Assembly: GCF_021129305.1 (NCBI RefSeq)
Contig: NZ_JAJOMB010000033.1
Coordinates: 1-64,000 of the forward strand
DNA: 64,000 nucleotides
Direction: 5' to 3'
From: Kineosporia babensis
GTDB lineage: Bacteria > Actinomycetota > Actinomycetes > Actinomycetales > Kineosporiaceae
Under the pieces are notes generated by a model, which did no database searches, was not told the DNA's origin, and saw nothing but the letters and a program-made list of their open reading frames with translations. Position numbers and translations under genes: made by a program. Below, piece by piece: positions 4,502-55,078 of the stretch (the stretch's first letter is position 1; each line of letters starts with the position of its first letter).

Positions 4502-4664
4502 GGGCCTGTCCTGTGGATCAGGGCCGTAGCGAGGAGGTGCCCGGGGCGCTGGCTGGGCGTGGCCGGTGGGGCCCCTCGCAATGGTTTTGCGTGGGGCCAC
4601 GCCGGACGCGGTCAGACGGCGTCACGGGTGCCCCGCAGTAGGCAATGATCCGCAGGACAGGCCC
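4502..4664 (+). mobile_element. Miniature inverted-repeat element, copy A
   Basis: This 163-bp non-coding element has terminal inverted repeats: 18 of 19 bases match between the left end (GGGCCTGTCC...) and the reversed right end. A second copy of identical length lies at 54352-54514 in the same orientation, with 8 differences in 163. The inner part carries a GGCGTGGCC/GGCCACGCC inverted pair. Flanks are AA on the left and TA on the right, so the duplication is eroded or absent. The right edge supplies the last base of the lacI TAG stop codon. No transposase is encoded. TIR and TA target suggest a non-autonomous derivative of an IS5- or IS630-like element; family assignment is inference. Confidence 0.8.
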
Positions 4665-5674
4665 TAAGCCGTGATCGTCGACTCGCGTACGATCAGCTCG
4701 GGCAGGTACACCACCTGGCGGTGCCGGTGCGCCCGCCCGTCAGCGGCTTCGGTCTCCTCGGTCAGCAGTTCGGCGGCGGTACGGCCGATCTGATGGCGCG
4801 GCTGACGGACCGAGGTCAGGGGCACTGCCGCGGCCGCCGCGAACTCGATGTCGTCGTAACCGATGATCGCCAGGTCTTCCGGCACCCGGATCCGCAGCCT
4901 GGTCATCTCCTGCAGCAGGCCCAGCGCAAGCAGATCGTTGGCGCAGAAGGCCGCGGTGGGACGACGGGAGGCCGGCATCCCGGCCAGACGCTGCCCGGCG
5001 GCCCGGCCCTCGGCCACGGTCAGGGCAGCGGTCGGCAGCACGATCGGCGCTCCGACGCCCTCCACCGCCTCACGAAAGCCCGCAAGCCGGTCCTGCACCT
5101 GGCCGACCGACTCCGGCCCGCCGACAAAGGCGATCCGCTCGTGCCCGCTCTCGGCCAGATACTGCCCAGCCAGCCGCCCGCCGTACACGTCGTCGACCGA
5201 CACCGAGCAGTACTTCTCCCCGCCGGTGCGATCGACCAGCACCACCGGCACACCGACGCCCGGGGGCAACGAAGCCTCTACCCCCGCCGGATCGACCGGG
5301 GTAACCAGCACGCCCCGCACTCGCTGCTCGAAAAGCAGTTCCAGGTAATCGCGTTCCCGCTGGCGGCTGTTGTCGCTGTTGCACAGAAACACCGCCAGCC
5401 CGGCATCACGCGCCGCCTCTTCCACCCCTTTGGCCACGTCGGTGAAGAACGGGTTGGCCGCGTCCAGCACCAGGTAGCCGATCGTCCGGCTGGCCCCGGC
5501 GCGCAGGTGGCGGGCCGACTCGTTGCGCACGAAGCCGAGTTGCTCGATCGCCGCCTCGACCCGCGAGCGCGTGGCGGCGCCCACCCGGTCCGGGCGATTG
5601 AGCACGTTGGAGACCGTGCCGACCGAGACTCCGGCCGCCGCGGCCACGTCCTTCACGCTGACCGTCGCAGACAC
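4664..5674 (-). CDS. LacI family transcriptional regulator (rhamnose-linked)
   Basis: This 336-residue repressor has an N-terminal LacI helix-turn-helix (VSVKDVAAAAGVSVGTVSNVL) and hinge, then a periplasmic-binding-like sugar domain with GYDDIEFAAA and LTSVRQP near the end. GTG at 5674 is chosen because GGAGAGG lies 6 nt upstream and the helix-turn-helix then begins at the expected residue 5. It is divergent from L-rhamnose mutarotase, so rhamnose or a rhamnoside is the likely inducer. Two LacI-type palindromes lie in the shared 248-bp region. Its TAG stop codon is completed by the adjoining miniature element. Confidence 0.9.
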   Translation of the reverse strand: MSATVSVKDVAAAAGVSVGTVSNVLNRPDRVGAATRSRVEAAIEQLGFVRNESARHLRAGASRTIGYLVLDAANPFFTDVAKGVEEAARDAGLAVFLCNSDNSRQRERDYLELLFEQRVRGVLVTPVDPAGVEASLPPGVGVPVVLVDRTGGEKYCSVSVDDVYGGRLAGQYLAESGHERIAFVGGPESVGQVQDRLAGFREAVEGVGAPIVLPTAALTVAEGRAAGQRLAGMPASRRPTAAFCANDLLALGLLQEMTRLRIRVPEDLAIIGYDDIEFAAAAAVPLTSVRQPRHQIGRTAAELLTEETEAADGRAHRHRQVVYLPELIVRESTITA

Positions 5675-5765
5675 CGCGCACCTCTCCCCAGCCCCAACCG
5701 ACAAAAGCCCGAACCGACAGACCCGAACCCGCGAACCCGTACCCGGCTCCGGTCGAAAGCGAAAT

Positions 5766-5777
5766 TGAAACGCCTCA
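5766..5777. promoter_or_regulatory. LacI-type operator, imperfect
   Basis: TGAAACGCCTCA keeps the left half-site and central CG of the LacI consensus TGAAACGTTTCA. It lies about 90 bp upstream of the divergent lacI start, pairing with the better site at 5880. Confidence 0.4.
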
Positions 5778-5879
5778 GACCGGTTTTGACCAGCACCTCG
5801 GCAAACCGCCGACTCTACCCAGGCCGCAGGCGAGGCGAGAAACAGCCCTTGACGACACCCGAAGAGCAGACATACCGTC

Positions 5880-5891
5880 TGAATCGTTTCA
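5880..5891. promoter_or_regulatory. LacI-type operator upstream of rhaM
   Basis: TGAATCGTTTCA is a near-perfect palindrome centred on CG, the classic LacI-family layout, ending 31 bp before the rhaM start. It is placed to block rhaM transcription. Confidence 0.6.
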
Positions 5892-5922
5892 CCATCGACG
5901 GACACGGAGCTGTGTTTCGCCC

Positions 5923-54195: not shown

Positions 54196-54351
54196 GAGTT
54201 GGCTCCCGAGGAGGTAGGTCGCACGGGAGCCGCATCTACTGGAGCATCCCTTTACCGTGAGTGGATGCTAGCGACACGTTGAGCAATCAAAGGGGAACTT
54301 GAGCCTGGTGATACCGGCGCGTCGAGCGCTCAGGCGCCCACAACGTCCCTA

Positions 54352-54514
54352 GGGCCCGTCCTGTGGATCATGGCCGTAGCGAGGAGGTGCCCGGGGCGCT
54401 GGCTGGGCGTGGCCGGTGGGGCCCCTCGCAATGGTTTTGCGTGGGGCCACGCCGGACGCGGTCAGACGGCGTTCCGGGCGCCCCGCAGTAGGCAAAGATC
54501 CACAGGCCAGGCCC
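54352..54514 (+). mobile_element. Miniature inverted-repeat element, copy B
   Basis: This second 163-bp copy matches copy A at all but 8 positions; about 100 central bases are identical. Terminal repeats agree at 16 of 19. It is flanked by TA on both sides (54350-54351 and 54515-54516), giving a TA duplication inside a CTAG site. It ends 3 bp from the TAA stop of the dinB-like gene, mirroring copy A's place at a lacI stop. Confidence 0.85.
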
Positions 54515-54517
54515 TAG

Positions 54518-55078
54518 TTACTCCCCGACCGACCCGTCGATCGACTCGCGGATCAGATCGGCGTGCCCGTTGTGCCGCGCGTACTCCTCCAGCAGGTGCG
54601 TGAGAATCCAGCGCAGGTTGGGGGTGTTGCCGTCCGCGAAACTGAACTTGGCCAGAGCACCCAGCCCGGCCTCGGCCATCACCGTGGCGGTGGCCGCCCG
54701 CGAGCGCTCGAGCGACGCGTGCCAGAGGGCGAGCAGTTCCTCCGGTGTGTCCTGGGCCGCCGAATGCCACTCCCAGTCGGGATCGGCGCCCCAGTCCACC
54801 GTGTCCCAGGGCGCCGGGCGGTCGGCCCCGAGCTGACGGATGTGCAGCCAGATGTCTTCCACGTAGGCGAGGTGCTTGATCATGCCGCCCAGGGTCATCG
54901 CCGAAGGCGGCAGGACCGTTGCCAGTCCTGCCGCGTCCAGCCCTTCGACCTTCCAGGCGAAGGTGGCGCGTTGGTACTCCAGGAATCCCAGCAGAGTCTC
55001 CGCCTCGCTGCCGGCGAACGGCGGCTCCGGACGACCCTGCTCGTCGATCATCGGCTCTTCCAACGCGCCTTCGCTCAT
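54518..55078 (-). CDS. DinB/DUF664 family protein
   Basis: This 186-residue four-helix-bundle protein belongs to the DinB superfamily (DUF664). Metal ligands are His in GGMIKHLAYVEDIW (about 68) and the two His of YARHNGHADLIRE (about 168-172). Such proteins include mycothiol-dependent transferases, a thiol common in actinobacteria; the exact reaction is unknown. ATG at 55078 overlaps the htpG stop by 4 bp, so both are cotranscribed. Confidence 0.88.
   Translation of the reverse strand: MSEGALEEPMIDEQGRPEPPFAGSEAETLLGFLEYQRATFAWKVEGLDAAGLATVLPPSAMTLGGMIKHLAYVEDIWLHIRQLGADRPAPWDTVDWGADPDWEWHSAAQDTPEELLALWHASLERSRAATATVMAEAGLGALAKFSFADGNTPNLRWILTHLLEEYARHNGHADLIRESIDGSVGE

Follow-up and report, generated by a model that had tools for sequence, protein, structure and literature searches.

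The first 64,000 nucleotides of a Kineosporia babensis contig, referred to here as the window, contain two nearly identical blocks of non-coding DNA. What are these blocks, do they move, and how can such insertions be tolerated beside genes? An earlier note, based on the same stretch, proposed a recently spread family of miniature transposons with a parent insertion sequence (IS) of the IS5 or IS630 type. The analyses described below indicate, with a probability of roughly 0.85, that the blocks are non-autonomous IS5-type mini-transposons (MITEs). The family has two unusual traits, an insertion that rebuilds stop codons and a core that changes its ends.

Two copies in the window

The blocks, copies A and B, have the length, orientation and ends originally reported: each is 163 bp long, both face the same way, they differ at 8 of 163 positions, and their terminal inverted repeats (TIRs) match at 18/19 and 16/19 positions. 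With copy A as query, copy B is recovered at an E value of 1.7e-69. The window contains four TIR-like sites versus 0.34 expected. Flanks are given here as left/right. Those of copy B are TA/TA, so the target duplication claimed for it is present; those of copy A are AA/TA, or CAA/TAA when one base wider. Neither 163-bp copy has a transposase gene, and the ORF that overlaps copy A enters from outside the element and is not credible as coding. The features of the two loci are as follows.

4502 to 4664, + strand: MITE copy A, whole element, type A ends; site empty in 5/5 congeneric genomes
4502 to 4520, + strand: left terminal inverted repeat of copy A
4523 to 4643, + strand: hairpin core of copy A, matched by model R1
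4582 to 4586, + strand: apical loop of copy A, TGGTT, from the fold and the loop classes
4646 to 4664, - strand: right terminal inverted repeat of copy A
4664 to 4666, - strand: stop codon (TAG) ending the LacI-family gene; the element's final base is 4664, and the target TA occupies 4665-4666
4664 to 5905, - strand: LacI-family regulator gene, terminating on copy A
54350 to 54351, no strand: left target duplication of copy B, TA
54352 to 54514, + strand: MITE copy B, whole element, type A ends; site empty in 5/5 congeneric genomes
54373 to 54493, + strand: hairpin core of copy B, matched by model R1 (L010 1522-1642)
54515 to 54516, no strand: right target duplication of copy B, TA
54518 to 55078, - strand: mycothiol-S-transferase (PF04978)-like gene, with its stop 3 bases past copy B

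A third, short copy of 88 bp (L050) lies about 6 kb past the end of the window, at G000:C27:70121-70212.

Copy number and distribution

The genome that contains the window (G000) is a 9.4-Mb draft in 89 contigs. Searching it with copy A gives 62 matches, a number that counts both strands, the element being an inverted repeat in its own right. Under a rule that requires both core arms, the fetched loci comprise 31 elements of at least 150 bp, one of which (L039) has no convincing right end, and 5 shorter ones of 81-139 bp. The ends belong mainly to two classes, type A (GGGCCTGTCCTGTGGATC) and type B (GGGAGTGTTTTGGAATTC and variants). Seventeen other type A copies are 92-98% identical to copy A, which fits the recent spread that had been proposed; L022 is 82% identical. 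About 30 further copies, the second subfamily with its different ends, and the extension of the inverted repeat over the whole element had escaped the earlier note, as had the insertions at stop codons and the core common to different ends.

Several short derivatives of about 70-101 bp (L048:988-1068, L050 on the minus strand, L049:884-984, L085, L069 and L076) retain both ends and the outer core and have lost the middle of the hairpin, as expected for deletions at palindromes. The element at L039:971-1168 is of type B. Its left arm contains an additional run of GC-rich sequence, which may be a small repeat nested there, and no right end was recognised.

All six genomes of the genus, the present one included, contain matches. 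Among seven other genomes of the family, one has a single short match that was not counted as an element. The core motif occurs with at most 2 mismatches in 7 of 394 genomes, and elements with both arms are found in three of these seven, G000, G221 and G300; no both-arm elements were found in the motif-bearing genomes G225, G256, G054 and G153. In the genus of G221, 2/5 genomes are positive. At least 4 of 396 genomes in a search of the phylum match the model, a count that is too low because the filters were strict and scoring was confined to 9 candidates per genome. Three genomes of another genus (g42) match the model and have longer hairpins. The MITEs of one g42 genome, G281, are 224-293 bp long (L175, L177, L178) and contain a small repeated palindrome, CCCCAAG...CAGGGG.

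In a collection of named sequences the core pattern is present in seven stretches, five from Kineosporia (K. rhizophila and K. mesophila records contain it), one from Kribbella and one from a Leptolyngbya MAG. The Leptolyngbya stretch was rejected, as the remainder of the element does not follow. Copy A has no match in the plasmid and phage collections. The Kribbella element as query retrieves an analogue on an Embleya plasmid and a short Streptomyces match, and the G221 element retrieves two partial matches on Streptomyces plasmids. The family is undescribed in the literature searched.

Empty sites in related genomes

The flanks of copy A are syntenic in 5/5 congeneric genomes, and the element is absent from each. 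Between the flank matches lie 16 to 103 bp, too short a distance for the element, and in G003 a CTAG ends the LacI-family gene in frame at the position of copy A (frame read by hand). At the copy B site the flank matches of the same five genomes are separated by 162 to 267 bp, versus 471 or slightly more here. Four of the five copy B gaps are long enough to hold the element, and the gaps contain no element match and neither ends nor core arms at up to 4 mismatches. Because the element is missing from both syntenic sites in all five congeners, both blocks are mobile. The alternative, that they are immobile intergenic regions conserved between orthologous loci, is refuted by these empty sites and by dispersed copies with TA duplications; nothing was found in its favour, and it retains almost no probability. 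The multiple copies, TIRs, TA duplications and empty sites bear out the original assignment to a MITE family.

Target site and stop codons

Site statistics were compiled from 52 elements, with ten repeat loci and elements shorter than 75 bp left out; within this set the right end of L039 is not convincing and that of L101 has masked bases. The flanks are TA/TA in 34 elements and CTA/TAG in 18; insertion is most often at CTAG, with duplication of TA. The tip of the TIR is G, so that insertion into CTAG leaves TA-G on either side. In 21/52 cases, copy A included, the final base of a TAG stop codon comes from the element, as judged from predicted flanking genes by a simple GC-bias rule. Such stops are at the left end in 10 cases and at the right end in 12, one element having both. 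Copy A terminates the LacI-family gene at 4664-5905 by a TAG of this kind although its own flanks are CAA/TAA.

CTAG is scarce: the window has 18, where base composition would predict 183 and overlapping trinucleotides 45. Fifty-one CTAG sites away from elements served as a control, and of these 10 are stops, 13 lie within predicted genes and 28 are intergenic. The difference between 21/52 and 10/51 has a nominal Fisher p of 0.03; a control set still including 12 sites that abut element ends has 16/63 stops. Stop codons are struck somewhat more often than other CTAG sites, and the excess is modest. Avoidance of gene interiors combined with the CTAG target may suffice to explain the insertions at stops. 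Predicted ORFs are overlapped by 4/52 elements, L077 lying wholly inside one and three others partly.

The gene context can be classified at 43 sites, of which 16 are between converging genes. This proportion, and the stop codon touched by 21/52 elements, would be expected of bidirectional terminator cassettes kept by the host between converging genes. The other 27 sites (16 + 7 between co-directional genes and 4 between diverging genes) speak against such cassettes, as does the single, weak terminator-like match in copy A, which lies inside the hairpin and away from the end of the element; we regard this explanation as improbable, while giving it some weight. At the 23 co-directional sites the + strand of the element runs antisense 16 times and sense 7 times (p 0.09). 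A bias toward the sense orientation was sought among these sites and not found, the lean being the opposite one. With stops divided 10 to 12 between left and right ends and orientations 16 to 7 between antisense and sense, these counts give no reason to think that the + strand hairpin is selected in host mRNA.

Probable partner insertion sequences

A probable partner of the MITEs is found in G261, another actinomycete. It has two IS copies (L171, L172) with 945 bp between paired ends and flanks cta/tag. The ends (GGGCSTGTCCTG) are identical to type A at 17/18 and 16/18 positions. L171 encodes DUF4096 (PF13340) in one frame and DDE_Tnp_1 (PF01609) in another. These are the domains of IS5-family transposases. 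The likeness to the MITEs is in ends and target; the ISs differ in carrying a transposase and in lacking the hairpin core, L171 and L172 being unmatched in the R1 search at E values up to 1. A second example is a 1070-bp IS (L112) in the congener G001, which encodes a 312-aa transposase with PF13340 and PF01609 and has ends identical to a type-B variant at 17/18 and 14/18 positions. DUF4096 has seven matches in 4/6 genomes of the genus, and type-B-like ends accompany it only at L112.

An IS5 affiliation is supported by sequence for both end types, because the G261 and G001 ISs combine matching ends with IS5-family domains. The TA duplication alone does not separate IS5 from IS630. The IS5 parent, one of the two first suggested, is supported by a 945-bp IS in another genome with near-identical ends, the CTAG/TA target and IS5-family domains. 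Within the IS5 family, the IS427 group is a candidate source of the elements.

The search for a full IS with the same ends as the MITEs succeeded in G261 (17/18, 16/18) and not in the draft genome of the host itself, where no type A ends face each other at the spacing of an IS. Inspection by eye found no obvious transposase in the ORFs of L030, L031 and L032, which have unpartnered type A ends, or of L037, which has a type-B pair; at the other loci whose ends are unpaired or only partly paired, the scan covered the ends alone. L171 and L172 lie exactly at contig ends, a position suggesting that ISs of this kind readily drop out of draft assemblies. With at most 2 mismatches, type A ends occur in 37/394 genomes of the class, versus nine for a reversed control pattern (table reading).

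Hairpin structure and covariation

Copy A, read on its + strand, folds over its full length with an MFE of -129.2 kcal/mol, versus -82.4 +/- 4.2 for shuffles (z -11.2); the fold of the opposite strand is weaker (-100, z -7.5). The element as a whole forms a single imperfect hairpin, and the inverted repeat is not limited to the ends. It matches none of the covariance models of Rfam 15. In an alignment of 47 distinct cores, fitted to the structure, with related copies counted apart and the Embleya element left out, 96.6% of cells are paired, versus 39.5-43.7% when the partners are slid. Both sides have changed in 29/42 pairs of this alignment, versus 13.2 in shuffles.

The mismatches of the stem are skewed between strands. 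When each element is paired with its reverse complement, a strand-blind procedure, 13 representatives show 107 G.T and 19 A.C mismatches; these representatives are not independent, six coming from the genus and three having been oriented with the covariance model. The other mismatches in these representatives are skewed likewise (GG 31, CC 1; AG 39, CT 17; TT 14, AA 5). The composition of the + strand (873 G, 663 C, 345 T, 264 A) alone predicts an excess of G.T over A.C of about 1.7 to 1, versus 5.6 to 1 observed. The skew favours a hairpin that would work as a single strand, RNA and ssDNA being favoured alike.

GTAG has a role in REPs, and GTAG stands at the foot of both arms of the element. 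This resemblance and the strand-biased mismatches might point to a REP/BIME-like family moved by a hairpin-recognising tyrosine (Y1) transposase. The TIRs, the TA duplications and the existence of an IS5-family IS with matching ends instead characterise a DDE element, and make a REP/BIME-like origin very improbable.

One core behind different ends

Type A and type B elements share a core. In one pair of copies, one of each type, the left core is identical at 52/53 and the right core at 48/54 positions, versus only 10/21 (left) and 9/20 (right) in the ends. Type A arms of G000 match the B1 arms of the same genome at 0.95 and the type A arms of G003 at 0.86, and B1 and B2 arms within one genome match at 0.80. 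The type A arms of G002 are a counter-case, matching those of G000 at 0.92. A tree of the cores requires at fewest 4 changes between A and B (3-5 across bootstraps for the A label), and many of its branches are weakly supported. L039 and L101 were left out of this tree, 2/35 inner branches are starred, the bootstrap is unsettled, and the labels are coarse, Kribbella, L061 and L065 being scored B on 13/18 bases. The apical loop tracks the ends: it is TGGTT in 24/27 type A elements and CGGTGTT in 17/19 of type B. The elements therefore look like mosaics, with the ends and tip of one line and the arms of another. L070 in G005 is a 97-bp element with a type A left end and a right end apparently of another kind, and is a possible recombinant between end types.

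Kineosporia, Kribbella and the genomes G221 and G300, which belong to two further genera, all retain the outer motif of the core, GCCGTNGCGAG[G/C]AGGTGCCCGG...GGGTGCC[C/G]CGCAGTAGG. It stands behind other ends in Kribbella sandramycini (L088), G221 (L101) and G300 (L094), and the stems of G221 and G300 have a G-C to C-G swap. A similarly built hairpin element of 161 bp (L108:2501-2664) lies on a linear plasmid of Embleya sp. NBC_00896, with ends GGGCCTGTCTTCAATCCC and apical TGGTT; it does not have the outer core motif.

Retention of the outer motif behind different ends, with its G-C to C-G swap, the paired cells and two-sided changes of the alignment, and the strand-skewed mismatches could all result if the hairpin were a functional RNA or ssDNA kept by selection for a job in the element or the host, the transposon ends being a changing vehicle. 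Arm-to-arm copying at the DNA level would also yield covariation in a palindrome, and a G+T-rich + strand by itself gives a G.T excess, though one below that seen. The non-independent representatives, the lack of an Rfam match and the balanced or antisense-leaning orientation to genes likewise weaken the case, and such a function is best regarded as a tentative suggestion. In its fullest form, about equally doubtful, the core would be a strand-specific ssRNA or ssDNA hairpin that outlives any one transposon, repeatedly acquires ends for different IS5-family transposases, has spread through several actinomycete families, and parks on stop codons harmlessly. If this were true, G.U pairs would keep the RNA paired while the DNA palindrome is broken enough for safe replication.

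Proposed mechanism and significance

Under the preferred reading, that of IS5-type MITEs, an IS5-family transposase acting in trans would recognise the 18-19 bp ends and insert the element at CTAG. This target is scarce in the present GC-rich genome, and some of the CTAG sites are TAG stop codons. Insertion into C-TA-G would rebuild TAG on either side, so that a gene struck at its stop retains the stop and gains a long hairpin behind it; the G at the tip of the TIR is the likely reason that insertions at stops are tolerated. Selection would remove insertions inside genes, leaving hairpins placed in the 3' untranslated RNA of neighbours. A hairpin in that position would probably act as a terminator-like or RNase-sensitive structure, either neutral or useful. 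Cores and ends appear to have been swapped from family to family, for which recombination or gene conversion among copies is the simplest route, and through such exchange one core could be moved by more than one transposase.

Non-autonomous elements are usually viewed as bound to one parent IS, and a core that changes ends would be another route of survival after loss of the parent. Insertion at stop codons offers a simple reason for the tolerance of such elements in GC-rich genomes, namely a rare CTAG and a TIR that starts with G. Long hairpins derived from mobile elements may be present in the 3' untranslated regions of actinomycetes, a point of relevance to the prediction of terminators and to studies of RNase III in this group. 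The strand bias of the mismatches makes a function in RNA versus DNA directly testable.

Comparison with known systems

Several families of short bacterial repeats can be compared with the Kineosporia element by anatomy. The host phylum of the Correia/NEMIS elements differs from that of the Kineosporia element. In anatomy the two are alike, in that both are short and non-autonomous, with TIRs and with TA at the ends; the Kineosporia element differs in its GC-rich hairpin spanning the whole element, insertion at CTAG and stop codons, IS5-family partner, and common core with different ends. The sections of PMC2229807 and PMC10969869 on Correia/NEMIS describe short, non-autonomous elements of Neisseria with TIRs, a terminal TA and a stem-loop transcript, and cleavage by RNase III of transcripts that carry them. 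The main text of PMC10969869 contains neither 'Streptomyces' nor 'Actino'.

In enterobacteria the ERIC sequence, in the account given in part of PMC2229807, is a 127-bp repeat with a terminal TA that has been tied to mRNA stability with an effect of orientation. It belongs to another host group, and the Kineosporia element differs from it in having no preference for the sense orientation. YPAL of Yersinia, which the same source treats as a mobile, intergenic palindrome of about 168 bp without a terminal TA and with internal inverted repeats (PMC2229807, in part), is like the Kineosporia element in size, palindromic structure, mobility and intergenic sites, and differs in its missing TA termini and internal repeats.

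The pneumococcal BOX and SPRITE repeats, as covered in part of PMC3049150, lie near the 3' ends of genes; BOX encodes the stop codon in 36 cases and SPRITE is terminator-like. In the Kineosporia element, by contrast, the stop is rebuilt inside the target by the tip of the TIR, and the stem runs the length of the element. For a role at the level of the transcript, as suggested here for hairpins behind stop codons, the orientation counts provide no support, but there is precedent in the accounts of Correia and ERIC in parts of PMC2229807 and PMC10969869.
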